Below are positions 4,689 through 19,281 of a stretch of DNA of 64,000 bases, piece after piece. Made by a program: the position numbers and the translations under genes. The stretch's first letter is position 1; every line of letters starts with the position of its first letter. Below the pieces are notes generated by a model, which saw nothing but the letters and a program-made list of their open reading frames with translations, made no database searches and had not been told where the DNA came from. This DNA comes from Nitrospirota bacterium (GTDB lineage: Bacteria > Nitrospirota > Thermodesulfovibrionia > Thermodesulfovibrionales > Magnetobacteriaceae), in the NCBI GenBank assembly GCA_015233895.1, contig JADFXG010000005.1, positions 62,001-126,000 on the forward strand, written 5' to 3'.

Positions 4689-5477
4689 ATGGTAAAAAAT
4701 GCCGTAATAGTGAGTAAGCTGCTTGTGTTTTTGCCGGTTTTTCTAAGTACAGGATTAATATCAGTCTGGCTAAGTGTTAATCAAGCCAGTGCTGCCGACG
4801 ATGCTGTCCATGGTAAAAAGGTGTTTGAAAGCCGCTGTGTAATTTGCCATGGTCCCAAAGGTGACGGCAAAGGATTAATGGACGTTGTGCACCGTAACGA
4901 AAAGAAGGGTATGGTGTGGACTGTGTTTCCACGGGATTTCACGTCGGGAGTGTTTAAGTTCAGGACAACTCCGACCGGTTGTCTGCCCACAGATGCAGAC
5001 CTTGCCAGAGTGATAACCGGCGGCATACCCAGAGCGTATATGCCATCGAGTGCTGATTTATCCAGGGAGGACGTAAAGGGTGTCATTGCGTATATAAAGA
5101 CTTTTTCCAAGCGTTGGCAAGAGGAACAGGCTTGCAGCAGTATCACTATAAAGAAACCTGCCTTTGTCGGCACACCTGAGTCGGTGGCAAAGGGTGAGAA
5201 AATATGGGAAAACATGAAATGCTGGGAATGCCACGGCAAAGAGGGCAAAGGAGACGGTACGAAGGCGGACAGTTTAAAGGACGACTGGGGCGACAAAGTG
5301 CTGCCATTTGACTTTACATCTGGTGCTACAAAGATGGGTTTTGCTCCGGAAAACGTTTATGCCGCTTACACCACAGGGCTTGACGGCACAGGTATGCCCT
5401 CGTATGCAGATTCTATAAAAGAAGAGGACAGATGGCATTTGGTTTCCTATACATTAAAACTAATGGGAAGGCTTTAG
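4689..5477 (+). CDS. Exported dihaem cytochrome c
   Basis: 262 residues with an N-terminal signal segment (about 1-36, cleavage near ASA-ADDA) and two c-type haem sites, C50VICH and C178WECH, each in its own cytochrome c domain. Distal Met candidates are in the GIPRAYMPSS and GTGMPSYAD segments. It lies 21 bp before nosZ. In clade II nos clusters c-type cytochromes next to nosZ are thought to deliver electrons to its CuA centre, and that is the likely job. It is clearly paralogous to the N-terminal half of the 17324 protein (shared PRDF...KFR.TP.G..PTDAD.. pattern). Confidence 0.92.
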   Translation: MVKNAVIVSKLLVFLPVFLSTGLISVWLSVNQASAADDAVHGKKVFESRCVICHGPKGDGKGLMDVVHRNEKKGMVWTVFPRDFTSGVFKFRTTPTGCLPTDADLARVITGGIPRAYMPSSADLSREDVKGVIAYIKTFSKRWQEEQACSSITIKKPAFVGTPESVAKGEKIWENMKCWECHGKEGKGDGTKADSLKDDWGDKVLPFDFTSGATKMGFAPENVYAAYTTGLDGTGMPSYADSIKEEDRWHLVSYTLKLMGRL

Positions 5478-5498: not shown

Positions 5499-7343
5499 AT
5501 GTCTTTTGATAGAAGAAGCTTTCTTAAGTATTTGGGAGTGGCAGGCGCAAGCGTTGGTGCAGGCATCGTTGCTCTTGAAAACATAACGAAAGATAGTGTC
5601 CAAAATACACTTTTAAGTACAACTGAGGCACATGCTGAGACTAAAAATGTAGGCACTCAGAGTAATGAGGTAAAACCCGGTGAGTTGGATTCATACTATG
5701 GTTTCTGGAGCGGCGGCCATTCCGGCGAGGTTAGAATCCTTGGTCTGCCCTCAATGAGAGAACTAAAAAGAATACCCGTGTTTAATGTAGATGTAGGCTC
5801 AGGCTATGGTATAACCAACGAAAGTAAGGCACTCCTGCGCGGACGGTTCTGCGGAGATACCCACCATGTCCACGGGACATATAAAGATGGCACATACGTT
5901 GCCAAGTATCTCTTTGTGAACGACAAACTCAACAACCGTGTGGCACGTATCAGGATGGACTACATGGAGGTGGATAAGATTGTGGATGTTCCCAATATTC
6001 AGGGAATGCACGGTCTTTTCACACAGAGGGCTCCAAAAACCGAGTGGGTGGTGTGTAACGGCGAGTTTCAGGTGCCGGTGCCTAACGCTTCATCCACTGA
6101 CCCCAATAACTACTACGGTATTCATGCAATAATAGACGCTGAGAAAATGGAGGTCGTATGCCAGATTATGACAGAGGAAAACATGGATTTGGCAGCCACC
6201 GACTATGCCGGAAAGTACTCACTGGCTACATCCTATAACGTGGAAAGAGGCGTTACAATCTCTGAAATGCTCTCTGCCGACAATGACGCTCTTTTAGTCT
6301 TTAACTGGGACAGAATCCGTAAAGCACTGAGTGCCGGCAAGTACAAGACTATTAACGGAGTGAAGGTAATAGACGGCAGAAGGGGCAAGTCCGACATAGT
6401 GCTACGCATTCCGATTCCTAAGAATCCTCACGGCGTAAATGTCACCCCTGACGGTAAGTATGCCATATGCTCTGGAAAAGTATCGCCCACGTGTTCGGTT
6501 ATAGACATAGCTAAGCTGGATGATGCGTTTAACGGTAAAATCAAACCGGAGGAGTGTGTCGTTGCTCAGCCCTACATTGGGCTTGGGCCGCTTCACACCA
6601 CATTTGACGGCAGAGGGAATGCCATCACCTCCGTGTTTATAGACAGCACAAACGTCAAGTGGAACATCCAGAAGGCAATTGAGGCAGAGAAGAAGGGCGC
6701 TGAGGAAAAAAAGAAAAACGCACACATCGTTGACGTCCTTGACGTGCACTACCAGGTGGGACACATAGAGGCCTCGATGGCTGAAACAAAAGAGGCTGAC
6801 GGTAAATGGCTCGTGTCTTTGAATAAGTTTTCAAAAGACAGATTCCTAAACGTAGGGCCTGCTAAAAACGAGTGTGAACAGCTTGTTGATATATCAGGTG
6901 AAAAGCTGAGACTTGTCCATGACTCTTCAGCCTACATAGAGCCCCATGACTGTATAATCGTAAGAAGAGACATAGTGGAAAAAGCCGTAAAAGACAGATA
7001 CAACATGTCTGAGCATCCGCTTGCTGTAACAAAAAGCGGTGTGGAAAGAAAAGGAAACAAGGTCACTGTAAAGGTTACGGCAAATGCGCCTGTGTATGGT
7101 CTGCAGGAGGTTAAACTCAAAAAGGGTGACGAGGTGACAGTCATTGTTACAAACAATGACGAAATTGCCGACCTTGGACATGGGTTTGCACTGTCTGACC
7201 ACAACATCAACTTTAGCGTGGCTCCGTTTCAGACCAAATCAGTAACATTTAAAGCTGATAAGCCGGGCGTCTATTGGGCATACTGTACGAATTTCTGCCA
7301 TGCACTTCACCTTGAGATGAGAATGAGGTTTATAATTACTTAG
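5499..7343 (+). CDS. nosZ: Nitrous oxide reductase NosZ
   Basis: 614 residues with all expected copper ligands. CuZ: H122, H123, H171, H311, H366, H422 and H483. CuA: H561 plus C596-x3-C600-x3-H604-x2-M607 in the C-terminal cupredoxin domain (CTNFCHALHLEM). It reduces N2O to N2 in the periplasm. The N-terminus reads DRRSFLKYLGVAGASVG, a twin-arginine (Tat) signal. Gene neighbours (cytochrome c, nosD, nosF, nosY, nosL, no nosX) look like the clade II layout, where Sec signals are more usual. A ribosome site (AGAGGAGG) precedes the ATG. A 13-bp-stem hairpin follows the gene. Confidence 0.97.
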   Translation: MSFDRRSFLKYLGVAGASVGAGIVALENITKDSVQNTLLSTTEAHAETKNVGTQSNEVKPGELDSYYGFWSGGHSGEVRILGLPSMRELKRIPVFNVDVGSGYGITNESKALLRGRFCGDTHHVHGTYKDGTYVAKYLFVNDKLNNRVARIRMDYMEVDKIVDVPNIQGMHGLFTQRAPKTEWVVCNGEFQVPVPNASSTDPNNYYGIHAIIDAEKMEVVCQIMTEENMDLAATDYAGKYSLATSYNVERGVTISEMLSADNDALLVFNWDRIRKALSAGKYKTINGVKVIDGRRGKSDIVLRIPIPKNPHGVNVTPDGKYAICSGKVSPTCSVIDIAKLDDAFNGKIKPEECVVAQPYIGLGPLHTTFDGRGNAITSVFIDSTNVKWNIQKAIEAEKKGAEEKKKNAHIVDVLDVHYQVGHIEASMAETKEADGKWLVSLNKFSKDRFLNVGPAKNECEQLVDISGEKLRLVHDSSAYIEPHDCIIVRRDIVEKAVKDRYNMSEHPLAVTKSGVERKGNKVTVKVTANAPVYGLQEVKLKKGDEVTVIVTNNDEIADLGHGFALSDHNINFSVAPFQTKSVTFKADKPGVYWAYCTNFCHALHLEMRMRFIIT

Positions 7344-7366
7344 AAACATATAACCTATAACAAGAG

Positions 7367-7398
7367 TAATCTCAGGCGGCATATACCGCCTGAGATTA
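7367..7398. terminator. Hairpin between nosZ and the NosR-like gene
   Basis: A perfect 13-bp inverted repeat (TAATCTCAGGCGG / CCGCCTGAGATTA) with loop CATATA, 23 bp after the nosZ stop. No T-run follows, so it is more likely a 3' stabiliser or partial terminator that raises nosZ message over the downstream genes than a full stop. Confidence 0.65.
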
Positions 7399-7417
7399 TA
7401 AATAAAGGGGTTTAACA

Positions 7418-8509
7418 GTGAAAGTCAAACAAGTTAGAAAAAAAGCGGCAGCAATGGCAGTGTTTATAATGGTTTTTTCATATTCGGTGGCGTATCCAGG
7501 GAGTTGGTCATATTTAGAGCACAGGTATGAATCTAAGCCCGGCGATGTATTAAAGGCAGATAGATTTGTACAAAAAGACCGCTACCTTGAAGGATTTTTG
7601 AGCGGTAAACTTGTGGGTTATGTGATTAACTCAAAGGACTGGGCTTCTAACCACGTTGGGTACTCCGGCAAGCACATTGAAACCCTGGTAGGAATGGATA
7701 CGGCGGGAAATCTGACTGGTGTTAAGGTGCTTTATCACTCTGAGCCTATAGTGCTGATAGGGCTGAAAGAGGATAACTTAAATAATTTTATAGCCCAGTA
7801 TGCCGGTAAGAGCGTTATAAAGGGCTTATCTCTTGGCAACGATATAAAGATGGATGCGCTAACCGGAGCCACCGTTACCGCTGAGGTAGAAAACGCAATA
7901 ATATTGGAATCGGCAAAGAAGGTTGCCGCGGCAGCCGGTTTGATTAAATATAGTGACAAAAAAGGTAAGAAGATTAGCCAAAAATTTGAGGCTATGGGCT
8001 TTAGTGAGCTTGTGGCATCAGGCGGCGTTAAAAACCTTATCATAACCTCTAAGGATATGGGTATTGAGAGTAAAGAAGCGTATCTGGATTTATATTTCGG
8101 AGTCGTGTCGGCCCCCACAATTGGTAAAAATATACTGGGTGAGAAGACGTTTAATGAGGTAATGTCAACGTTAAAGGAGGGTGAGACACCCATATTTATA
8201 GTGTCCCGTGGACAGGGATCGTTTAAGGGCTCCGGTTTTGTACGTGGTGGAGTGTTTGAGAGATTCAGCATAGAGCAAGGAAGCAGAACCTATGTGTTTA
8301 CCGACAAGGATTATAGTATTCTTACTGAGCTATCGGCCAAAGGAGCTCCGGCCATTAAAGAGGGCGGAGTGTTTATCATAAGAGCCAAAGATTTTGACCC
8401 AACCGTTCCTTTTAAACTTAAACTCATGGTGTCTTTAAGAGAGGGAGCAACAAAGAAGTTCCATGCAACAGCGGCAGATTATGCCCTTGCCGACAGGTTC
8501 ACAGAGTAA
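7418..8509 (+). CDS. NosR-like FMN-binding protein (N-terminal half of NosR)
   Basis: 363 residues with a signal or anchor segment (about 9-27) and an FMN_bind domain. The flavinylation motif D146ALTGAT152 marks Thr152 as the likely site of covalent FMN. The rest, about residues 185-345, resembles the periplasmic region of NosR that follows FMN_bind. It ends 3 bp before a separate membrane 4Fe-4S gene; together they cover what NosR does in one about 720-residue chain: pass electrons from quinol toward NosZ or its maturation. Start is GTG with AAAGGGG upstream. ApbE, which would load FMN, is encoded at 42.9 kb. Confidence 0.85.
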   Translation: MKVKQVRKKAAAMAVFIMVFSYSVAYPGSWSYLEHRYESKPGDVLKADRFVQKDRYLEGFLSGKLVGYVINSKDWASNHVGYSGKHIETLVGMDTAGNLTGVKVLYHSEPIVLIGLKEDNLNNFIAQYAGKSVIKGLSLGNDIKMDALTGATVTAEVENAIILESAKKVAAAAGLIKYSDKKGKKISQKFEAMGFSELVASGGVKNLIITSKDMGIESKEAYLDLYFGVVSAPTIGKNILGEKTFNEVMSTLKEGETPIFIVSRGQGSFKGSGFVRGGVFERFSIEQGSRTYVFTDKDYSILTELSAKGAPAIKEGGVFIIRAKDFDPTVPFKLKLMVSLREGATKKFHATAADYALADRFTE

Positions 8510-8512
8510 CGG

Positions 8513-9403
8513 ATGGAAACCGCATTGTGGAAAATCATATGGACTCAAAAGATAGTGCACATCGTTCTTTTTGCTGCCTTGATTGTTGCCATAGCTGTGG
8601 TGTTTCTTTTTAGAGACCGTTTGTCAAAGCGGCCATTAGTTTTTAAGGTAATCCGCTACGGCATTTTAGTGGTTTCTTTTTTCTATGCAGGGTTGTATTT
8701 AAAAGCCCAGCCAACCACCACAAACATTGCCATAGCTATAAGTGCCGCTAAAGACGGCAATTTCCCTATGGAATTGTTTCTTATGGAGCCGTTTATTTTT
8801 CTGTCTTTTGCCTTTATTGCTATAAGTGCGGTTATATGGGGCAGGGGGGCTTATTGCGGATGGTTGTGCCCTTACGGTGCGATGCTTGAGTTATTAAACT
8901 CAATTGCCGGTAAGATAAAATCTCCATGGATAAATCTCAGAGTTCCTCAGGGGGCACACAGAGTATTGTTGAAACTAAAATACATAGCCCTTGCCGCAAT
9001 TGTTGGCCTTGCATGGTATAACTTCATGCTTTCGGAGTTTTTGACGGAGGTTGAGCCATTTAAAACCTTTGTGCTAAAACTTAACAGGCAATGGTATTTT
9101 GTAGCGTACTTTATTGTGCTGACACTTCTGTCGGTGGTTGTTTACCGTGCCTTTTGCCGCTTCCTCTGTCCTTTGGGGGCAGCAATATCAATTCCTTCAA
9201 TTTTAAAAAACTTTCTGCCTATGAGCACACTTAAAAGAAGAGCGCTCTGCGCCAGTTGCAAAGTATGCGCCAAATCCTGTAACAGCGCTGCAATCAGTAC
9301 TACTGGCGACATTAATTACGCCGAGTGTATGCAGTGCCTTGACTGCCAGATGATTTACCATGACACACACAGATGTACAGGGCTATTAGGCAAAAACAAG
9401 TGA
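8513..9403 (+). CDS. Membrane 4Fe-4S protein (C-terminal half of NosR / NapH-like)
   Basis: 296 residues with about five membrane helices, two conserved CxxxCP segments (CGWLCPYGA and CRFLCPLGA) and two ferredoxin-type clusters on the C-terminal cytoplasmic part (CASCKVCAKSC and CMQCLDC). This is the architecture of the C-terminal half of NosR and of NapH. It begins 3 bp after the FMN-binding gene, so the two are surely co-translated and probably form one complex in the inner membrane that moves electrons from the cytoplasm or quinone pool to the periplasmic flavin. Confidence 0.88.
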   Translation: METALWKIIWTQKIVHIVLFAALIVAIAVVFLFRDRLSKRPLVFKVIRYGILVVSFFYAGLYLKAQPTTTNIAIAISAAKDGNFPMELFLMEPFIFLSFAFIAISAVIWGRGAYCGWLCPYGAMLELLNSIAGKIKSPWINLRVPQGAHRVLLKLKYIALAAIVGLAWYNFMLSEFLTEVEPFKTFVLKLNRQWYFVAYFIVLTLLSVVVYRAFCRFLCPLGAAISIPSILKNFLPMSTLKRRALCASCKVCAKSCNSAAISTTGDINYAECMQCLDCQMIYHDTHRCTGLLGKNK

Positions 9404-10719
9404 ATAGTTGCCGTTTGATTTCATTGTTTTTTGCCATTTTTATGGTATCAGCAACAACCGGAGCTGCAGCCGTATTAAAAGTCGGCGATGGCGGCGTTAA
9501 GACTATTAATGAGGCTCTCAGTAAGGCAAAACCCGGCGACACGATAGAGGTTGTTGGCGGCACGTATTCTGAGACTCTTAAATTAAATAAAAAAATACAC
9601 ATTAAAGGAATCAACAATCCCGTTATAACCTCAAAAGGCGGCTATGTTATTGATATAACAAGTTCCGGCGTAACAGTCGAGGGCTTTACTATAAAATACG
9701 AGGGGAAACACGCTGCAGACGATGTCGCAATTCTTGTCCACAATGGATCGCAAGGGGTACTGATAAAAAAGAATGTTTTAAAAAACGTTATGTTTGGGAT
9801 AAAGGTTGTAGAGAGTCTGGATACCGCTATTGTTGACAATACGGTAGAGGGCATAGAGGATAAAGATGAGAACACAAGGGGAACGTGTATAACTGCAGTT
9901 GGCACCCTAAACCTTGAGGTTAGCGGCAATAAGATTACAAGCTGCCGGGATGGCATCTATATGGAGGTCTCCCACTACGCAACAGTGACAGATAACGAGG
10001 TAACAAATTCCCGTTATGCAATACACACGATGTGGGTTGATTCGGGTAACTTCTGCGACAATATTGTAATTGACAATCTTGTAGGGATGGCCATCATGTA
10101 CACCAAACACACCGTTGCAAACAGAAACATCGCCGTTGGAAATAAAACACACGGGCTTTTAATAAATCAAACTATAAGAAGTGAAATAAATGAAAATATA
10201 TCTATCGGCAACACAAAGGGAATCTTTCTGTATAATTCCATAGAAAATGAGGTTAAATCTAATCTCGTAATGAACAACAACATTGGGATTCACAGCTGGG
10301 GGGGCTCTGAGGAAAACAAGATAACAGGCAATTCGCTGATTGATAACGAGGTGCAGGTAAAGTATGTGGCGGCTAAAGATCAGGAGTGGAACGGAAACTA
10401 CTGGAGCGACTATCTGGGCTGGGACATGACCGGAAAGGGTAGTGGGGATATGCCCTATGAGTCAAACACGGTGGTCGACCATATTTTCTGGCGTTACCCT
10501 CTGGCTAAGCTTCTCTACAGCAGCCCGGCAATTCATGTTTTAAAAATAATAGAAAAACAGTTCCCTATACTGAAAGTCCCCAAGGTGACAGACAGAACTC
10601 CCTCTATGGCGCCTCTTCATAAAAACTGGAGGCTGCTTAAGGCTAAATACGCAAACTACCAGCCAGCCCGTTATCATGTGGACATACAGAAACTCTCCAA
10701 CACAGGAGGCATCTATTGA
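9373..10719 (+). CDS. nosD: NosD, copper-site maturation protein of N2O reductase
   Basis: About 448 residues with a signal peptide and a right-handed beta-helix of repeated parallel-strand turns (pattern N.V..N.YGI, NEISENI..GN..GI). NosD is periplasmic and works with the NosFY ABC transporter to assemble the CuZ sulfide-copper centre. The ATG at 9373 overlaps the upstream gene by 31 bp; a GTG at 9400 overlaps it by only 4 bp (GTGA) and would still leave a full signal peptide, so it is the better biological start. The stop overlaps the TTG start of nosF. Confidence 0.93.
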   Translation: MYRAIRQKQVNSCRLISLFFAIFMVSATTGAAAVLKVGDGGVKTINEALSKAKPGDTIEVVGGTYSETLKLNKKIHIKGINNPVITSKGGYVIDITSSGVTVEGFTIKYEGKHAADDVAILVHNGSQGVLIKKNVLKNVMFGIKVVESLDTAIVDNTVEGIEDKDENTRGTCITAVGTLNLEVSGNKITSCRDGIYMEVSHYATVTDNEVTNSRYAIHTMWVDSGNFCDNIVIDNLVGMAIMYTKHTVANRNIAVGNKTHGLLINQTIRSEINENISIGNTKGIFLYNSIENEVKSNLVMNNNIGIHSWGGSEENKITGNSLIDNEVQVKYVAAKDQEWNGNYWSDYLGWDMTGKGSGDMPYESNTVVDHIFWRYPLAKLLYSSPAIHVLKIIEKQFPILKVPKVTDRTPSMAPLHKNWRLLKAKYANYQPARYHVDIQKLSNTGGIY

Positions 10720-11618
10720 AAATTACCTTTAATGAAGTGACAAAACGTTACGGAGACGTTGTTGCTCTTGAGAAAGTGACTCTTGAGATAGCGCATGGCG
10801 AGACGTTTGGACTTGTGGGGCCAAATGGCTCCGGTAAGTCAACTCTGATGAGGCTGCTGCTTGGCATAATTAAGCCAACTGAGGGCAGTGTGCTTTTTGA
10901 CGGTGTATCGTTGGATGAAAAAGGCTGGATAGAGATAAGACGGCAGATTGGGTATATGCCTGAGCGGGTGTCGTTTTATGACAACCTGACGGGGTTTGAG
11001 ACACTGCAGCACTTTGCCCGGATAAAGGGCGGAGGCGTCAGTAACATTAAAGACGTGCTCGGAAAGATTCTCGCCGATGAGGCACTTAGAAGAAGGGTTG
11101 GAGGGTATTCAAAGGGGATGAGGCAGCGGATTAACCTTGCTCAGGCACTTCTTAATAATCCCGCTCTGCTTGTGCTGGATGAGCCAACGTCGGGGCTTGA
11201 CCCTGTGGGTGTGCGGGAACTTTACGGGATACTGGATGAGTTAAAGAGTGTCAGGAATATGACCATAGTGCTGTCTTCTCATATTCTGGCTGAGATAGAG
11301 GAAAAAGTGCAGAGAGTGGGAATTATGAAAGAGGGAAATATTAAAGCAACAGGCTCACTTGAGGAGCTTTATCGAGGGTTTAATCTTCCCCTTAGGTTGG
11401 TTGTGATGCTCAGGGAGGATGGTGACAAGCGGATTGTGGAACTTCTGAAGGCAGAGGGTTTGGACAATATTGCTGTCAAAGACGGCTCCCTTGTTACAGA
11501 CTTACCGAGGGATAAAAAAATGAGAGTACTTAGCTGCATCTTAGAGCATAAGGATTCGTTTTCAGATTTCACGGTGCGGGAGCCAAGTCTTGAGGAGGTG
11601 TTCTTTGGTATTCACTGA
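10716..11618 (+). CDS. nosF: NosF, ABC-transporter ATPase
   Basis: 300 residues with Walker A G35PNGSGKST, the signature stretch YSKGMRQRIN, Walker B LLVLDEPTSGLDP and the switch His in SSHI. It hydrolyses ATP on the cytoplasmic face for the NosFY exporter, which is thought to supply sulfur (or a related component) for CuZ assembly. The TTG start overlaps the nosD stop by 4 bp (TTGA), and a ribosome site (ACAGGAGG) lies inside the nosD end. The C-terminus overlaps nosY. Confidence 0.93.
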   Translation: MKITFNEVTKRYGDVVALEKVTLEIAHGETFGLVGPNGSGKSTLMRLLLGIIKPTEGSVLFDGVSLDEKGWIEIRRQIGYMPERVSFYDNLTGFETLQHFARIKGGGVSNIKDVLGKILADEALRRRVGGYSKGMRQRINLAQALLNNPALLVLDEPTSGLDPVGVRELYGILDELKSVRNMTIVLSSHILAEIEEKVQRVGIMKEGNIKATGSLEELYRGFNLPLRLVVMLREDGDKRIVELLKAEGLDNIAVKDGSLVTDLPRDKKMRVLSCILEHKDSFSDFTVREPSLEEVFFGIH

Positions 11619-12435
11619 TGCGCTTAGAGCGATGGCTGTTAAGGAGTTATCGGATAAACTAAAAAGCAAATGGGTCATTGTAATTACGATTGTGTTTGCG
11701 GTTTTTACTTTGATAATCGCCTATTTTGGCTCAGTATCTTCAGGGGTGGTATCTTTTACAAACATGAGTGCCACCATAGCAAGTCTGACAAGCCTTGCAG
11801 TTTATTTTATTCCGATTCTTGCTCTAACCCTTGGAGGAGGAATCATTGCCGATGAAAGAGACAGACAAACGCTTGATTTATATTTAGCGTCGCCAATTTC
11901 TGTGTTTGAATTTTTAGCAGGGAAATTTATAGGGCTTGCCGCCTCACTGACTATTCCAATCATTGCCGGGTTTTGTCTTCCGGGATTTGTGCTTATCTTT
12001 AAGGCAGGCTCAGGGTCACTTGCCGGATTTTTGATGTTTGTTGTTAATTCCATTTTTTTAGGAATCATGTTTTTAAGCATTTCCTTTCTGGTATCCGTAC
12101 TCATAGTGGAAAGAAGCAAGTCTATAGCGTTTACGGTGTTTTTGTGGCTTTTGTTTACAATCCTTTATGATTTGGCTCTGGTAGGGGTGCTGATTATCAC
12201 AAAAGGGGTGCTTAGCCCTAAAATATTTTCTCTCCTTCTGATGCTTAACCCTGTGGATGTCTATAGGATACTTAATTTTATCACAATAGGGCAGTTTTCG
12301 GTAATTTTAGGGCTTGCCTCTGTGGAGCTTCCCGGCTTTATGAACAGGTATGTCCTGTGGGTGGTTAATCTGTTTTGGATTGTTTCTCCGCTTTTGATTA
12401 GCTACTTTGTGTTTAAAAGAAAATATCTAAAATAA
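11605..12435 (+). CDS. nosY: NosY, ABC-transporter permease
   Basis: About 276 residues with six predicted membrane helices and the ABC-2 permease stretch GGGIIADERDRQTLDLYLASP near the first third. It is the membrane partner of NosF. The TTG at 11605 is chosen because GAGGAGG lies 6 bases upstream; a TTG at 11590 gives five more residues, but then the ribosome site would be inside the coding region. It overlaps nosF by 14 bp. Confidence 0.9.
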   Translation: MVFTDALRAMAVKELSDKLKSKWVIVITIVFAVFTLIIAYFGSVSSGVVSFTNMSATIASLTSLAVYFIPILALTLGGGIIADERDRQTLDLYLASPISVFEFLAGKFIGLAASLTIPIIAGFCLPGFVLIFKAGSGSLAGFLMFVVNSIFLGIMFLSISFLVSVLIVERSKSIAFTVFLWLLFTILYDLALVGVLIITKGVLSPKIFSLLLMLNPVDVYRILNFITIGQFSVILGLASVELPGFMNRYVLWVVNLFWIVSPLLISYFVFKRKYLK

Positions 12436-12457
12436 AATGTATCGGAGGATTACTAAA

Positions 12458-13243
12458 ATGCGTTTAAAAACATGGGGTTTCTTAACGGTTTTTGTGTTTA
12501 TAGTGTTAGGCGGGAGTGCTTACGGCTACGACACTGTTGATGTTAAAAACGGTGCTACAATTAAAGGGGTCATTAAAAACAGTGGTGCAGTCCCCGCCGA
12601 TGAGGTCATCAATGTGACAGAGGATCAATCAGTCTGTGGTAAAACAATCAATGCCGGCAAATATTTGATTTCTGATTCAAAGGTAAAAAATGTTGTTGTA
12701 TTTGTCACAGATGTTAAAAAAGGAATGGCGCTGCCTAAAAAAAATGTGGAAATTACGATAGATAAATGCAGGGTGCTGCCGCATGTTTCTTTGGGCTTTA
12801 CGGGCAGCGAATATGTAATTAAAAATAATGATCCAATTTTACACACTGTTCAGCTAAAACTTGGGCTTGACTACCAAAAGGAGATCTCAAAGCGGCCACT
12901 TGAGGACGGTTCCACTATCTTAAATCTTGCCTTTCCCACACAGGGGATGGAACTTAGAAAACCAATACGGGATTTCCACAGATTTACTAAAGACACAGGC
13001 TACATTCGCGTTAAGTCAAACGCCCATCCGTGGCTAAGAGGCATTGTGTTTGTCTTTGATCACCCGTACGCCGCAGTTTCTAACGAAAAAGGAGAGTATG
13101 AGATAACAGGGCTTATGTCCGGCAAATACACTCTGAGGTTTTGGCATGAGGGATTTGGCGAGGTGGAAAAAACAGTCGTTGTATCAGAAGGGGAAACCAA
13201 AACCCTTGATGTTGACTTAAGCAACAAATCTGACACCAGGTAA
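12458..13243 (+). CDS. Exported protein with carboxypeptidase-regulatory-like domain, paralogue 1
   Basis: 261 residues from the ATG at 12458, which has CGGAGG upstream; an ATG at 12437 would place that site inside the gene. A signal peptide (to about GSAYG) is followed by a cupredoxin-like region with single conserved C, H and M residues (SVCGK, DKCRVLPHVS, DPILHT, NAHPWLRG) and a C-terminal prealbumin-like fold (GEYEITGLMSGKYTLRFWHEGFG). It shares this layout with the gene at 13406. Exact function unknown; conserved H and C suggest copper or haem contact in the periplasm, and the location 22 bp after nosY suggests a role in the nos or oxidase system. Confidence 0.8.
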   Translation: MRLKTWGFLTVFVFIVLGGSAYGYDTVDVKNGATIKGVIKNSGAVPADEVINVTEDQSVCGKTINAGKYLISDSKVKNVVVFVTDVKKGMALPKKNVEITIDKCRVLPHVSLGFTGSEYVIKNNDPILHTVQLKLGLDYQKEISKRPLEDGSTILNLAFPTQGMELRKPIRDFHRFTKDTGYIRVKSNAHPWLRGIVFVFDHPYAAVSNEKGEYEITGLMSGKYTLRFWHEGFGEVEKTVVVSEGETKTLDVDLSNKSDTR

Positions 13244-13405
13244 AGAACGTTTGGCATAACACAGTAACGATTCTAAAGTTACTTTAGTTACTGAAAGAAC
13301 TGTAACAGATAAAGGATAATTCATTGGAATAAAACATATTTGGCAGAATCTTGATTTTCAAGATAATTGAAAAACTTTAAAGCGGTTTAAGTGGAGGTAA
13401 AGTAG

Positions 13406-14137
13406 ATGAAGAAGTTAGTTGCTCTGATGTGTATGGTTATGTTTCTTTGTGTGAGTGCTGTGGCGTTTGCAGCCGATAAGTATGAGGTGGTGGATGTAAA
13501 AGATGGTGGGAGTATAAAGGGAATAGTGAAAACCTCAGGTGCGCCTGCTGATCCGGTTCTTGACATCAATAAGGACACAGAGTACTGCGGTAAGTCTCAC
13601 CCTGCCGGAATGTATGTGGTAGGAGCCGGCGGTGGAGTAAAGAACGTTATCGTAGCAGTAGAGGATATAACCAAGGGTAAGGCCGCACCAAAAACAGACA
13701 CGGTTATAGATAACCACAAGTGTGCCTTTGAGCCGTTGGTAAGCATTGCTTACATGGGGCAGAAGTATATCATGAAAAACAGCGACCCGATATTTCACAA
13801 CACATCAATTGGTTTAATACTGGCACCGGGCAAAAAAAGAACCGTGTATAATTTAGCTCTTCCCAACAAAGACCAGACAATAGAAAAACCCGTAAAAGTA
13901 GCCGGACTTGAGAGTGTCTCCTGTGATGCCCACTCATGGATGCGTGCATTTGTTTATGCAACTCCAAACCCTTATGCAGCAATCACAGACGACAAGGGCT
14001 CCTTCGAGATAAAAGATATTCCTGCCGGCAAGTACAAAGTGAAGTTTTGGCATGAGGGCTTTGGCGAGGCGGTAGTGGATGTAGAGGTAAAGGCTGGCGC
14101 AACAGCTACACTTGACCACACATTTGCTAAGAAATAG
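13406..14137 (+). CDS. Exported protein with carboxypeptidase-regulatory-like domain, paralogue 2
   Basis: 243 residues with a signal peptide (cleavage near AFA-ADKY). Same plan as the 12458 protein: VVDVKDGGSIKGIVKTSG, EYCGKSHPAG, HKCAFEPLVSI, DPIFHNT, DAHSWMRAF, then the repeat GKYKVKFWHEGFGE. Conserved C, H and W positions match between the two, so the metal or cofactor contact is probably shared. It has its own ribosome site (GTGGAGGT) and is followed by a strong terminator, so nosZ-to-here may form one transcription block. Function not established. Confidence 0.82.
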   Translation: MKKLVALMCMVMFLCVSAVAFAADKYEVVDVKDGGSIKGIVKTSGAPADPVLDINKDTEYCGKSHPAGMYVVGAGGGVKNVIVAVEDITKGKAAPKTDTVIDNHKCAFEPLVSIAYMGQKYIMKNSDPIFHNTSIGLILAPGKKRTVYNLALPNKDQTIEKPVKVAGLESVSCDAHSWMRAFVYATPNPYAAITDDKGSFEIKDIPAGKYKVKFWHEGFGEAVVDVEVKAGATATLDHTFAKK

Positions 14138-14148
14138 ATTTGGTATGA

Positions 14149-14190
14149 AACAGGTTCATCGCTGAGATGTGATGAACCTGTTGGTTTTTT
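14149..14190 (+). terminator. Rho-independent terminator
   Basis: A perfect 12-bp stem, AACAGGTTCATC / GATGAACCTGTT, with a 10-base loop, followed by GGTTTTTT. It separates the nosZ-to-paralogue block from the bd-like oxidase block. Confidence 0.88.
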
Positions 14191-14216: not shown

Positions 14217-15974
14217 ATGGCAGACGTTAGCCCATCTAAAAGCCTGATAAAAGGGGTTATAAAGTTAACCTTGTTTTTGGGCGTTGGTTTTGCTGTGCTT
14301 TTTATCCTAAACAAAGTTTTGTCAGCGCCTACGGAGGATGGTTACAGGTTTTTCCCTGTAATCGGGAGCCGCGTGTGGGTTTGGATAATAGCGCAGCTTC
14401 ACCTTAATTTTGCCGCTTTTGTCCTGGGGGTTCCGATTTTTGCCGTTTCAATGGAGTTTATGAGCTGGAGGCGTAATGATGAGAGGCTTGACAGGATTGC
14501 CTACGATTTTACTAAACTCTTTACTTTGGCTTATACGCTTACGGCGGCTGTTGGAACGATACTAATGATAAGTTTACCAGTATTGTATCCAAAGTTTATA
14601 GACCATTTGATGAAAATCCTTGGGCCCACATGGTGGGTCTATGTGTTGGTGATGTACATTGAAACGCTTGTCTGCTACTACTACTTCTATTCATGGAAGC
14701 AGATGAAGGGCAGTAAAAAGGGAACGCATGTAGCCATTGGCGGTCTTCTTAATATCATGGGCATAACCATGCTTCTGATAACCAGCTCATGGGTTGGGTA
14801 TATGACAACTCCCAATCCGCACGGAGTAAGTGAAACAGGCGAGCTAATTAACAGATGGCAAGCCATTAAGTCATACATGTGGATACCTCTTTCACTTCAC
14901 AGGCTTTTTGCTAACGTGGTTTTTGGCGCAGGTATTGCCGCAGCTTATGCAGCTTACAGGTTTATAACCGCTGAGACTGACGAACAGCGCGCCTACTACG
15001 ACTGGATGGGTTACACATCAGCTATGATTTCTATCGGGTTTTCACTGATTCTGCCCGGAATCGGATATCTGCTTGGTGTGGAAATTTACTCTTTTAACGA
15101 ACAGATGGGAATTCAGCTTATGGGCGGGTTTTTTGCATGGCTCTGGGTTATGCAGGCAATTCTTATCGGAGCTATTCTTATGTTTGTTAACTATTACCTG
15201 TGGATTTCCCTGAATAAGATGCCAGGGGGCGAAAGGTATTTTAAATACGTTAAATATCTGTTTATCGTAAACCTGCTGGGGTATGCCGTGTGGCTTACTC
15301 CGCACAGCATAGCGCTTAGCCTTGAGGAGGCAAGACGGATGGGAGCGTATCACCCTGTGTTGGGAAGTCTTGGCGTTATGGCCTCTAAAAACACTGCCGT
15401 TGTTGTGTCATATATGGCCACATTTTTAAGTTTTACCATATTTAAAATAAGTAACAAAGAGCCGATAGTGAGCTGGGCTAAGCTTGGGCATACCATCAGA
15501 GCTGCCGTAATAGTGCTTTCTACTGCCGCTGCCATCGCCATAGGTATTTACAGTTATATGGTGACATCTGCGGTGAGAGTGAAAGTGCTGTCTCCGATTC
15601 AGTTTGGGATATTTTTCCTCTCAATTATAATTCTCTTTGTGCTTGACACTATGATGTACAAAGGGGCGATAGTTATAGGGGAGCCCAGATGGGGCAAAAT
15701 GCCGGAGCGGTCGCAGTACGCACTCATAGGGATAACGGTGACATTTACGTGGCTCATGGCAATGATGGGCTATATGAGAAGCGGCGGACGGCAGTTTTGG
15801 CACGTGTATGGAATCGTTAAAGACACAAGTCCGGATGCTTACTTACCGACTCATGGTTATGCAGCGGTTGTTTCCTCCATTGTTACGGTGATATTCTTTG
15901 CGCTGATAGGGCTTTTGTTTTGGAGCATTATGAAACTTGAAAAGGTAGCGGACAAGGGAGGGGCTCAAACATGA
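14217..15974 (+). CDS. Cytochrome bd-like oxidase subunit I (CydA homologue, no CydB)
   Basis: 585 residues, mostly membrane helices. CydA landmarks: H62 in AQLHLNFAAF (equivalent of the high-spin haem ligand), E149 in MYIETL (second of the CydA Glu pair; the first Glu position is Val), H228 in LSLHRLFANVVFG (haem b558 ligand) and GGRQFW near the end (CydA GRQPW). The long periplasmic quinol loop is short or absent. No subunit II gene follows; three cytochrome c genes do. This matches the 'bd-like oxidases' noted in Nitrospira-type bacteria. Substrate could be O2 or NO, and the donor may be cytochrome c rather than quinol; both are inference. Confidence 0.85.
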   Translation: MADVSPSKSLIKGVIKLTLFLGVGFAVLFILNKVLSAPTEDGYRFFPVIGSRVWVWIIAQLHLNFAAFVLGVPIFAVSMEFMSWRRNDERLDRIAYDFTKLFTLAYTLTAAVGTILMISLPVLYPKFIDHLMKILGPTWWVYVLVMYIETLVCYYYFYSWKQMKGSKKGTHVAIGGLLNIMGITMLLITSSWVGYMTTPNPHGVSETGELINRWQAIKSYMWIPLSLHRLFANVVFGAGIAAAYAAYRFITAETDEQRAYYDWMGYTSAMISIGFSLILPGIGYLLGVEIYSFNEQMGIQLMGGFFAWLWVMQAILIGAILMFVNYYLWISLNKMPGGERYFKYVKYLFIVNLLGYAVWLTPHSIALSLEEARRMGAYHPVLGSLGVMASKNTAVVVSYMATFLSFTIFKISNKEPIVSWAKLGHTIRAAVIVLSTAAAIAIGIYSYMVTSAVRVKVLSPIQFGIFFLSIIILFVLDTMMYKGAIVIGEPRWGKMPERSQYALIGITVTFTWLMAMMGYMRSGGRQFWHVYGIVKDTSPDAYLPTHGYAAVVSSIVTVIFFALIGLLFWSIMKLEKVADKGGAQT

Positions 15975-16495
15975 AAGGCGGTGTGTTGAAGTTATTGACA
16001 GTAGTGGTAGGGCTTAACATATTCTTTGCCTACATAGGACTATATTTCCTCCCTCAGTCTGAGTCACGCCCTCCTAAGGAGACAAAGATAGAAAAGGGGA
16101 TTTCTCAGGACGATCTGATAGCAGTCGGTGAACAGATAGTCTTTAGCAAAGGACAGTGTATGGTGTGCCATCCGGTTAAAACAGAGGTTGGGATGCGGGC
16201 CCCTGCAATATCAACAATCGGTGTTGAGATGGAAAAAAGCGCTAAAGAGAGAAATATGAAATTTGAGTCCTACGTCTTTGAAGCGCTGGTTAATCCCTCA
16301 GCATACATTCAAAAGGGATTTGAAAACATGATGCCTCCCATCCACAAGCCTCCAACATCGCTTAACGATGGAGAGTTGATAGCGGTTGCTGCATATTTAC
16401 AAAGCAGAGGCGCAAAGGTATCTGTCTCCTATCCTGAGTCAGTCCCTGTGTTGAAAGAACAAATAGATATAGAAGCCAAAAAAGGAGGTAAATAA
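15971..16495 (+). CDS. Membrane-anchored monohaem cytochrome c
   Basis: 174 residues with an N-terminal membrane anchor (about 7-27) and one c-type haem site, CMVCH, with a likely distal Met in ENMMPP. It overlaps the bd-like oxidase gene by 4 bp (ATGA), so stoichiometric production and a shared complex are likely. The haem domain would face the periplasm and could donate electrons to the oxidase. Resembles small anchored cytochromes of oxidase and alternative-complex systems. Confidence 0.88.
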   Translation: MKGGVLKLLTVVVGLNIFFAYIGLYFLPQSESRPPKETKIEKGISQDDLIAVGEQIVFSKGQCMVCHPVKTEVGMRAPAISTIGVEMEKSAKERNMKFESYVFEALVNPSAYIQKGFENMMPPIHKPPTSLNDGELIAVAAYLQSRGAKVSVSYPESVPVLKEQIDIEAKKGGK

Positions 16496-16500
16496 TAGGA

Positions 16501-17301
16501 ATGATGAAAATATATCCTATAATTGCTGCCATTGGGCTTTTAATAACAGTGGTTTCAGTCTTAAAGAAATCCCCCTTTTTTAATTTCCTTGGTTTGCTTA
16601 CACTGATATACGGACTTTTGAAAAGCGTGGGACTTATTACAGCTCCCTTCCCGGCTCAGGTTATGACAATGTACATGGCTATGTCGGTGTTTTCGCTGTT
16701 TATTTACTTTTCGATTCAGGAGTCAACATTTGAAGCTTTACTTGAACCGGTAAGAGCGGTCTTAGCCGATGACAACAAACGGATTTTAAGAGTGCTGATA
16801 GTGTTTATAGCCTTGCCGCTGTTTGCCGGGTATTTGACTTTTGATAAGGTAAAACCTAACTATGAACCGCCCGTATCGGCAAGAATAGTGCATCCTGAGC
16901 CGGTTTCCTCAATTGAATTCAGAGGAAAACCAATTACCATCATTGGGCTTGAAAATCCTCTCAGAAAAGATGCGGCCAACATGGCTGGCAATCTTGAGGC
17001 TGGAAAGAAAATCTACTATCAGAATTGTTTTTATTGCCACGGAGACGACCTTGACGGCAGAGGGCATCTGGCGCTGGGCTTTAATCCGGTTCCGCCCCCG
17101 TTTCGGGGAACTGACACTATAGCACAGTTACCGGAGTCCTTTGTCTTTTGGCGTATAGCTAAGGGCTGGAGAGGGCTGCCTGCAGGTAGCACTCCATGGA
17201 ATTCTGCTATGCCGTCTTTTGAGGATTTACTGACAGAGGATGAAATCTGGAAAGTGACACTGTTTATCTATGAAGCCACGGGCAATAAGCCGAGAAGTTA
17301 A
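16501..17301 (+). CDS. Membrane protein with C-terminal cytochrome c domain
   Basis: 266 residues. The first 125 hold about four hydrophobic helices; the C-terminal part is a cytochrome c domain with CFYCH and a probable distal Met in NSAMPSF. The domain order (several helices, then haem c) differs from the simple anchored cytochromes beside it and suggests an integral part of the oxidase complex, perhaps replacing the missing subunit II. It follows the upstream gene by 5 bp, with AAAGGAGG upstream of two tandem ATGs. Confidence 0.85.
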   Translation: MMKIYPIIAAIGLLITVVSVLKKSPFFNFLGLLTLIYGLLKSVGLITAPFPAQVMTMYMAMSVFSLFIYFSIQESTFEALLEPVRAVLADDNKRILRVLIVFIALPLFAGYLTFDKVKPNYEPPVSARIVHPEPVSSIEFRGKPITIIGLENPLRKDAANMAGNLEAGKKIYYQNCFYCHGDDLDGRGHLALGFNPVPPPFRGTDTIAQLPESFVFWRIAKGWRGLPAGSTPWNSAMPSFEDLLTEDEIWKVTLFIYEATGNKPRS

Positions 17302-17323
17302 CTAACACAGAAGGAGTGGGAAA

Positions 17324-18769
17324 ATGAAGAAAATTCTTTTAACGATACTACTGACTGTGGTTTTATGCTCGGCGTGGTATTTATCAGCAAGCGCTGAGGA
17401 CAGTCAGGGCAAGAAACTCTATAACGGGTGGTGCGCACAGTGCCACGGTTATGACGGCGATGCCAAGTCCTACACGGATAAGTTTTCTGTACCAAAACCC
17501 AGGGATTTCACCATGGGTACATATAAATTCAGATCAACACCGTCTGGGGATCCACCAACTGATGCAGATATTACAAAGATTGTCAGAAATGGTAACCCTG
17601 GCACATCGATGCCTCCCTGGACTAGATTTACCGATGATGAGGTAAAGGCGATTGTTGCTCACGTTAAGACGTTTGCTCCGGACATATTTAAAGATGCCGG
17701 TAAGCCCATAACCATAGGAACGCCTCCAAAGGCCAGTGCTGCGCTAATAGCAAAGGGCAAGGAGCTCTTTAACAAGGCCAAGTGTGTGGAGTGCCACGGC
17801 AAGGCCGGGCGTGGTAACGGAGAGAAGGGCTGGCAGGAAAACTTTAAAAACGACTGGGGAGACCCTATAACCCCTGCCAATTACACTCATCCGTGGGAGT
17901 TAAGAAACGGCTCAACCGTTGAAGATATTTACAGGACAATATCGGTAGGATTGGGCGGAACCCCTATGACCTCTTATATGGATTCACTTAAGGATGAGGA
18001 CAGGTGGGCCCTGGCTGTGTTTATAAAGTCGCTGCAGGAGCAGAGAAAACTGGGAGTTGCCATAAAGATCAAAAAAACTGCTGCAATTCCTGCAAAAGTG
18101 GATGATCCGGCGTGGGATGGCACAGAGTATATGGATTTGCCTATGGGCGGGCAGCTCATGTTTGAGCCACGTGATTTTACGCCTCTTATCACTAACGTCA
18201 GAGTCAGAGGATTGTATTCGGATAAGGAATTTGCAATTATGGTGGAGTGGAGTGACAAAAGGCCCAACACCGGTGCTGATGGTAAGCCTGCTGACGGTGT
18301 GTGGATTCAATTTCCGGAAAAAGTAACAGAGGAGGCGGAAAAGCCCTATTTCTTCATGGGTGATAAAAAGCATCCCGTGCATCTCTGGAACTGGAAAGCC
18401 TCTGATACTGGTAAGGTGACAGAACAGATAGCTAAGGGATATGACAATGTAGCGGATTTACCAAAACAGGACGTAACTGTAATAGCAGGTTATAACGACG
18501 GCCTGTACAGGGTGGTCTATAAAAGAGCACTGAAAACAAGCACTAAGGATGATTTCGAAGTACTGCCTGGCAAGTTTGTACCGTTTTCAATAGCGGCATT
18601 TGACGGACAAAATGGCGAAAGCGGCATAAAGGGCGCTGTGTCAGCATGGTATTACCTGATGCTTGAGCCAGCAACACCACTAAGAGTATATGTGTTTCCA
18701 CCTCTTGTAGCGCTCTGCGTGTTTGTTGGCGGGTTGTCGCTTAGCAGGAGTTTAAGGTCTAAAAAATAG
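17324..18769 (+). CDS. Dihaem cytochrome c fused to ethylbenzene-dehydrogenase-type haem-b domain
   Basis: 481 residues: a signal peptide (cleavage near ASA-EDSQ), two cytochrome c domains (CAQCH and CVECH), then from about residue 250 a DOMON-like domain of the ethylbenzene dehydrogenase gamma-subunit type (DDPAWDGTEY...), and a C-terminal membrane anchor ending SRSLRSKK. The c-type half is paralogous to the 4689 cytochrome. Such fusions bind a haem b as well and act as periplasmic electron carriers. Located last before nosL, it could link the bd-like oxidase module to NosZ or to quinol-oxidising partners. Confidence 0.85.
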   Translation: MKKILLTILLTVVLCSAWYLSASAEDSQGKKLYNGWCAQCHGYDGDAKSYTDKFSVPKPRDFTMGTYKFRSTPSGDPPTDADITKIVRNGNPGTSMPPWTRFTDDEVKAIVAHVKTFAPDIFKDAGKPITIGTPPKASAALIAKGKELFNKAKCVECHGKAGRGNGEKGWQENFKNDWGDPITPANYTHPWELRNGSTVEDIYRTISVGLGGTPMTSYMDSLKDEDRWALAVFIKSLQEQRKLGVAIKIKKTAAIPAKVDDPAWDGTEYMDLPMGGQLMFEPRDFTPLITNVRVRGLYSDKEFAIMVEWSDKRPNTGADGKPADGVWIQFPEKVTEEAEKPYFFMGDKKHPVHLWNWKASDTGKVTEQIAKGYDNVADLPKQDVTVIAGYNDGLYRVVYKRALKTSTKDDFEVLPGKFVPFSIAAFDGQNGESGIKGAVSAWYYLMLEPATPLRVYVFPPLVALCVFVGGLSLSRSLRSKK

Positions 18770-19281
18770 TGAAGGGTTTAACATTAAATAGTTGGTTGTT
18801 AACCGTGTCACTGTTGTTTATAGTTGGTTGTTCCAAAGGGGAGGATACTAAAAAATATCCTCCCCTTCCATTAGACAAAAACAGTGTGTGCAGTGTCTGT
18901 GCAATGCCACTTTTGGAATTTCCCGGCCCCAAGGCACAAATAATTTACACAGACGGCCGACATGACTTCTTTTGTGGCACACTGGATCTGTTTACATTTT
19001 ATCTGCAGCCTGACAGCCCCAAAAACATTGCTGCCATCTACGTAAACGATATGGGGAAAGAGGACTGGAGCAATCCAACAGGGCACTGGATAGATGCAAA
19101 GACGGCAATTTTGGTTTATGGAGCTGAGGTCAGGGGCGCTATGGGAGACATACTGGTTCCATTTTCCTCTCAATTGCAAGCGAATGACTATATAGCAAAA
19201 TACCGCGGCAGGCTGGTTGGTTTTAATGAAATTAACATGGAGATGTTGCGGCCTTTTATGACAGATCACCACAAAAAATAG
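18769..19281 (+). CDS. nosL: NosL, copper-chaperone lipoprotein
   Basis: 170 residues with a lipoprotein signal (LFIVGC) and the Cu(I)-binding motif CSVCAMPL, the NosL form of CxxCGM. NosL delivers copper to NosZ in the periplasm. Later NosL features are seen: YTDGRHDFFC, ARHWVDA-like GHWIDAKTA and the MGDILVPF segment. The GTG start overlaps the preceding TAG by one base. Being last in the run ties the bd-like oxidase and cytochromes to the nos locus. Confidence 0.93.
   Translation: MKGLTLNSWLLTVSLLFIVGCSKGEDTKKYPPLPLDKNSVCSVCAMPLLEFPGPKAQIIYTDGRHDFFCGTLDLFTFYLQPDSPKNIAAIYVNDMGKEDWSNPTGHWIDAKTAILVYGAEVRGAMGDILVPFSSQLQANDYIAKYRGRLVGFNEINMEMLRPFMTDHHKK

Follow-up and report, generated by a model that had tools for sequence, protein, structure and literature searches.

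A 64,000-nucleotide stretch from the genome of a Nitrospirota bacterium related to Magnetobacterium (contig JADFXG010000005.1, positions 62,001 to 126,000; hereafter the window) contains a nitrous oxide reductase (nos) operon in which four genes, encoding a CydA homologue and three membrane-linked cytochromes c, lie between a cupredoxin gene and nosL. We hold with moderate confidence that these genes encode one cytochrome-c-linked membrane complex of the OR-N (bd-like) type, working as an O2 reductase driven by cytochrome c or cupredoxin. A first-pass annotation of the DNA had proposed a CydB-less, cytochrome-c-coupled bd-like module inside the nos operon, and this is upheld; gene order, a gene fusion and the presence or absence of the four genes as a block further support a single functional unit. 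The same annotation regarded the module as the strongest candidate in the window for an undescribed system, with a subunit make-up that needed definition. That view has to be given up, as publications on Nitrospira, Nitrospina and anammox bacteria describe the same set (PMC6606698, PMC3578206, PMC8026999).

Composition of the module

The four open reading frames were found where they had been annotated, and nosL closes the run (Table 1). The overlap between cydA and the gene of the first cytochrome c is 4 bp (ATGA), as reported before. The second and third module genes are 5 bp apart, the third and fourth 22 bp, and the start of nosL overlaps the end of the fourth gene by 1 bp.

The CydA homologue matches PF01654 in Pfam with 55.6 bits (cut-off 26.2). 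The three cytochrome subunits carry one, one and two haem c motifs, respectively, and the conserved Met partners of these motifs are M121, M237, M96 and M215. The fourth protein also matches PF09459, the ethylbenzene dehydrogenase haem-b family (Pfam), and TIGR03477 with 84 bits, which is under the cut-off. Its EB_dh domain may bind a haem b, as expected from the family; in the alignment of relatives no Met or Lys of this domain reaches 90% conservation. In a fold search with the protein encoded at 16501-17301, solved structures were matched by the cytochrome c domain only, and the part with four transmembrane (TM) helices was barely tested.

The absence of CydB was confirmed, as no PF02322 match was found in the genome (3.7 Mb, rated 100% complete). 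A CydB gene that co-evolves with this CydA was also sought among relatives and not found: 13 of 16 have no CydB match, and CydB exceeds the cut-off in only two (G234 and G235), both of which carry the four genes without nos. The genome encodes a single CydA and no second homologue (CydA'). Pfam gave no COX1 match among the module proteins, the COX1 proteins of the genome being encoded elsewhere. ActA/ActB-type genes were not found among the module genes using Pfam and NCBIfam; the rest of the genome was not searched for these.

Table 1. The four module genes and the surrounding features in the window (aa, amino acids; AF2, AlphaFold2; pLDDT, predicted local distance difference test score; ACIII, alternative complex III; NxrC, subunit of nitrite oxidoreductase; FMN, flavin mononucleotide; Tat, twin-arginine translocation; ORF, open reading frame)
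Feature	Position	Strand	Evidence and remarks
CydA homologue, OR-N/bd-like group, catalytic core; 585 aa, 14 TM helices	14217..15974	+	PF01654; AF2; VIA-align; invariant core residues
Monohaem cytochrome c, one N-terminal membrane anchor; 174 aa	15971..16495	+	CXXCH, PF00034; nearly all relatives have it as second module gene; CydA fusion in Scalindua L078
4-TM protein with C-terminal monohaem cytochrome c domain; 266 aa	16501..17301	+	PF13442; AF2 pLDDT 89.2; c domain resembles cytochromes c from ACIII and other sources; third module gene
Dihaem cytochrome c/EB_dh fusion (NxrC-like, haem-b family), C-terminal TM helix; 481 aa	17324..18769	+	PF13442, PF00034, PF09459; fourth module gene
Periplasmic cupredoxin-like protein, CarboxypepD_reg domain; probable accessory electron carrier	13406..14137	+	H131, C173, H176, M179 invariant in 18 homologues
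Terminator-like hairpin with T tail, between cupredoxin gene and cydA	14149..14182	+	14 pairs; -24.7 kcal/mol for the gap
Cupredoxin-like paralogue without the Cys and Met copper ligands	12437..13243	+	Pfam; homologue comparison
Dihaem cytochrome c upstream of nosZ, candidate shared donor	4689..5477	+	Paralogous to dihaem part of 17324-18769; 151-176 bits between families in relatives
nosZ, Tat-type (clade I)	5499..7343	+	TIGR04244, 807.9 bits
Rest of host operon: nosR-like FMN protein, nosH, nosD, nosF, nosY	7418..12435	+	ORFs; Pfam and NCBIfam for the first two; order kept in relatives
nosL, copper chaperone of the nos operon, outside the proposed complex	18769..19281	+	PF05573, 146.5 bits

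The CydA core

The AF2 model of the window CydA (pLDDT 86.7; predicted template modelling score 0.87) has 14 long TM helices and short loops. It aligns with the CydA chains of solved bd oxidases over approximately 350 residues with VIA-align Z scores of 31-34, and the next-best folds are ActF (Z 21.1) and ActC (Z 18.6-19.1) of ACIII. The model has no long loop between helices 222-251 and 255-293, the site of the quinol loop in canonical CydA. This agrees with bd-like oxidases, which have been described as having 14 helices and no quinol loop (PMC3578206).

H62, E149 and H228, previously listed as retained, are invariant in 96 of 96 relatives, 12 from the nos clade and 84 others. In the same sequences H171, R229, E289, Q313, K391, R521, R525, W528 and H529 are also invariant, and the GRQ-W motif is retained as R525/W528/H529. 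The first Glu of the CydA pair is indeed absent and only E149 is left, but since it is missing throughout the family, its absence does not set this locus apart. Position 141 (V141 in the window) is V, P, I, L or F in the relatives. In a hidden Markov model alignment to 5doq, read by eye, the canonical first Glu falls at Tyr142, a residue that does not vary within the core family. Three CydA homologues linked to nitrite oxidoreductase (NXR) genes, at L043, L044 and L045, have Met in place of H62 and retain E149 and H228.

In the CydA tree, which is a quick tree with unsure long branches elsewhere, the nos-linked CydAs and two nos-less cousins form one branch with a Shimodaira-Hasegawa-like approximate likelihood ratio test value of 100 and a stem of 1.66 changes per column. 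The nearest named relative of the window CydA is that of the Nitrospirae metagenome-assembled genome (MAG) MYbinv3, and the next is Candidatus Magnetobacterium casense, with 82% CydA identity. The protein groups with bd-like proteins of Nitrospiraceae and Scalindua, in a tree that contains no labelled OR-N reference sequences, and its identity to the bd-like proteins of the phylum outside the nos branch is about 38-48%. Of the positions that do not vary elsewhere, many hydrophobic and a few polar ones are altered in the nos branch (N226, N396, Y409, R411); none of the invariant core residues is affected. One nos-type CydA homologue (G233:C62:87023-88415) is broken by stop codons and frame changes and is a decaying copy.

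Conservation of the gene set

When named genomes were scanned with a CydA alignment, 80 loci were obtained, picked by CydA alone, from approximately 15 phyla: Nitrospirota, Rokuibacteriota, Gemmatimonadota, Acidobacteriota, Bacteroidota, Rhodothermota, Calditrichota, Myxococcota, Chloroflexota, Planctomycetota (including Scalindua), Hydrogenedentota, Poribacteria, Fibrobacterota, Methylomirabilota and others. The complete set, consisting of cydA and the genes for the cytochrome c, the 4-TM cytochrome c and the dihaem/EB_dh protein, is present in the same order and on one strand at 75 loci, and the five incomplete loci are explained by two gene fusions and three contig ends. The second module gene encodes a monohaem protein in the nos branch and a dihaem protein in most other phyla.

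Scalindua (L078) encodes CydA and the cytochrome c as a single protein of 844 aa with an ordinary linker. Repeat-like linkers, possibly in-frame repeat insertions, join the third subunit to the fourth at L068:12588-14861 and L042:1021-3318; L078 is clean, and we treated these two joins with caution as fusion evidence. Judged by the conserved gene order, the CydA-cytochrome c fusion and the presence or absence of the genes as a block, the four genes are one functional unit, and their products very probably form one complex.

The Nitrospiraceae loci examined have a second CydA-like gene 3.5-4 kb from the CydA of the module, the product of which is degenerate at E149 (in part), E289 and Q500.

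The module as a cassette in the nos operon

We surveyed 176 genomes of the order. The nos-type CydA was found in 18 (one pseudogene and one partial) and this type of NosZ in 19, with both present in 14, the cassette only in 4 and NosZ only in 5 (Fisher p 1.7e-13, uncorrected for kinship; 1.4e-7 by genus). Three related loci (L140, L141 and L143) have the same nos gene order, with small differences, and lack all four genes, the gaps between the cupredoxin gene and nosL being 2, 65 and 146 bp. Three others (L146, L147 and L148) have the cassette without nearby nos genes. As related species carry cassette-less nos operons, NosZ does not need the cassette, and we rejected an essential role for it. 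That the linkage persists in families f1 and f8, and also on a contig binned as Aquificaceae, suggests that the two benefit from being expressed together, not that they need each other.

The contig binned as Aquificaceae (L061) has nos genes and the cassette, with 69% CydA identity and no nosL nearby, and represents either a transfer or misbinning. The module of a Fibrobacterota MAG (L072) is preceded, within 10 kbp, by nos genes and an NnrS gene, which may represent a second and independent linkage to nos. In the window, 5499-8509 encodes the Tat-type clade I NosZ; the NosR is a reduced, FMN-binding protein of 363 aa, and the NosH-like protein is separate.

Candidate electron donors

H131, C173, H176 and M179 of the cupredoxin upstream of cydA are the predicted type-1 copper ligand set. 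A relative of this protein is encoded close to the module in 43 of the 80 named loci, with CxxHxxM in nearly all of them. Between the cupredoxin gene and cydA several relatives have different but strong hairpins, and the corresponding gap of cassette-less operons also contains hairpin-like sequence. The strong hairpin at this place, shared by the window and several relatives, points to production of more cupredoxin than membrane complex. In nearly all relatives a transglutaminase-like and a TlpA-like gene separate the two CarboxypepD_reg genes; both are missing from the window (13244-13405).

An NXR-like operon encoding A, B and EB_dh subunits, led by a gene for a dihaem cytochrome c, is located on another contig (C1:338915-342400; L155:6993-14210). 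The dihaem cytochromes c encoded at nosZ, at this operon and in the fourth module subunit belong to one family. A high-potential carrier pool common to NXR, NosZ and the module is likely.

Proposed function and alternatives

We propose that the dihaem-c/EB_dh subunit would be reduced by the cupredoxin, by dihaem cytochromes such as that encoded at 4689-5477, or by both. From there the two membrane-linked cytochromes c would carry electrons to the CydA haems, first on the H228 side and then at the H62/E149 site, where O2 would be reduced to water with protons taken from the inside. The four-gene cassette ahead of nosL would thus provide a cytochrome-c-fed O2 sink, made together with N2O reductase at the oxic-anoxic boundary, that either shares donors with NosZ or keeps O2 off NosZ. 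Sharing of donors had been suggested before; it is plausible, although close relatives keep the same nos operon without the cassette.

We assign O2 as the probable substrate because of what is known of the family. Most Nitrospira have no haem-copper oxidase and the bd-like oxidase is their proposed terminal oxidase (PMC6606698), while OR-N enzymes are predicted to oxidise cytochrome c (PMC10839748). Several points weigh against an O2 reductase. We found no purified OR-N enzyme with O2 activity in the literature searched, nor a demonstrated activity for any other member. Anammox bacteria, which are anaerobes, carry the same cluster, and for the Nitrospira copy comprising bd-like_3 and alt_NxrC_2 reverse electron flow has been proposed instead of O2 reduction (PMC6606698). 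The long stem and the changed conserved residues indicate that the function of the nos branch may have shifted. Furthermore, the genome also encodes a caa3-type oxidase, and at least one COX1-family protein was found in 16 of 16 relatives examined, so the module is not the only O2 sink; a role as sole terminal oxidase was rejected on account of the caa3-type enzyme.

If the function has shifted, the enzymes of the nos branch could reduce NO, or both O2 and NO, with electrons from cytochrome c and cupredoxin, and hand N2O to the NosZ of the same operon, a modification that we think improbable. An NO reductase had already been raised in the first-pass annotation; as an enzyme of the bd superfamily, its CydA would be fed by cytochrome c and convert NO to N2O, which NosZ would remove. 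This reading would fit the nos-operon location on a distinct, long-stemmed branch, the NnrS gene adjoining the module in the Fibrobacterota MAG, and the genome, which has no strong NorB-like match but only CtaD and one divergent COX1-like protein. However, NirK was not found in the genome and the PF02239 matches (26-32 bits) are too weak to be taken as NirS, so there is no obvious internal source of NO. In addition, cassette-bearing congeners also have 200-bit COX1-family proteins that may be NO reductases, the catalytic-site residues are the same as in the rest of the family, and the module is far from nos genes in many phyla. The idea is weakened accordingly, and we give it little credence. 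The divergent COX1-like protein (470 aa; L055:8852-10264, contig C5) is encoded after the caa3 genes and, by eye, has no copper-site His-His pair; a sequence search of the PDB with it gave no match.

Electron exchange between the quinone pool and periplasmic cytochrome c, as in ACIII, feeding NosZ or reverse electron flow, has been proposed for the same cluster in Nitrospina, anammox bacteria and Nitrospira (PMC3578206, PMC6606698). The fold matches to ActF and ActC, next after CydA, and a cytochrome c subunit that resembles those of ACIII are in line with it. On the other hand, the CydA model has no quinol loop, ActA/ActB-type genes are missing from the module and close relatives keep the nos operon without the cassette. 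Moreover, residues of the haem-ligand type are conserved, which would be dispensable in the NrfD-like subunits of ACIII, and we regard quinone exchange as unlikely. We also regard it as doubtful that the nos location is an insertion accident and the enzyme an ordinary OR-N oxidase untied to N2O reduction, a reading that bears on why the genes lie there and is compatible with the chemistry proposed above. Nos operons without the cassette and cassettes without nos occur within the order, and nearly all other phyla lack the linkage. An accident is harder to reconcile with a linkage kept in two families and on the contig binned as Aquificaceae, with the finding of cassette and NosZ together in 14 genomes, compared with 4 and 5 that have one of them, or with the overlap of nosL and the last module gene in the window.

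Relation to known systems

The cluster of a bd-like oxidase, two cytochromes c and an alternative NxrC was described from Nitrospira, Nitrospina and anammox bacteria, its function being left open (Mundinger et al. 2019, PMC6606698; Luecker et al. 2013, PMC3578206; PMC8026999). It shares with the window module the bd-like CydA, the two membrane-linked cytochromes c and the NxrC-like protein with two haem c motifs, and the gene order is the same in the Nitrospiraceae and Scalindua loci examined. That cluster lies in NXR-related regions, whereas the window module is part of a nos operon. The Nitrospiraceae loci examined have the second CydA-like gene a few genes away, whereas in the window CydA has no such companion, the second gene encodes a monohaem protein and a full cupredoxin gene precedes cydA.

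The OR-N family of the cytochrome bd superfamily was named by Murali, Gennis and Hemp 2021, as cited in PMC10839748 and PMC12342949. The window module shares with it a CydA core without a quinol site, the lack of CydB and the predicted cytochrome c donor. OR-N1 and OR-N2 are proposed to pair as CydAA', whereas the window genome has no second CydA. Canonical CydAB (5doq, 6rko, 7ose) has the same CydA fold and core His and Glu residues. The window module differs from it in lacking CydB and the quinol loop and in having extra helices and cytochrome c subunits; of the active-site Glu pair, E99/E107 in E. coli, it has only the second (E149). ACIII (6btm, 6f0k, 8k9e) has a similar helical-bundle fold (Z about 19-21) and membrane-linked cytochrome c subunits, but the module genes do not include ActA/ActB-type subunits, and CydA conserves residues of the haem-ligand type.

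We found no description of a nos-linked module in the literature searched. Within that literature its place in the nos operon, its behaviour there as a cassette and its independence from CydA' appear to be new.

Significance

The role of the bd-like oxidase bears on the route by which nitrite electrons reach O2 in Nitrospira, Nitrospina and anammox bacteria. The comparison defines a minimal unit of one CydA and three cytochrome subunits, often with a cupredoxin nearby, and shows that the CydA' partner is dispensable, at least in this lineage. The order also provides natural pairs of otherwise matching nos operons with and without the cassette. A vaguely defined 'bd-like oxidase' thereby becomes a defined four-subunit target for expression and structure work.

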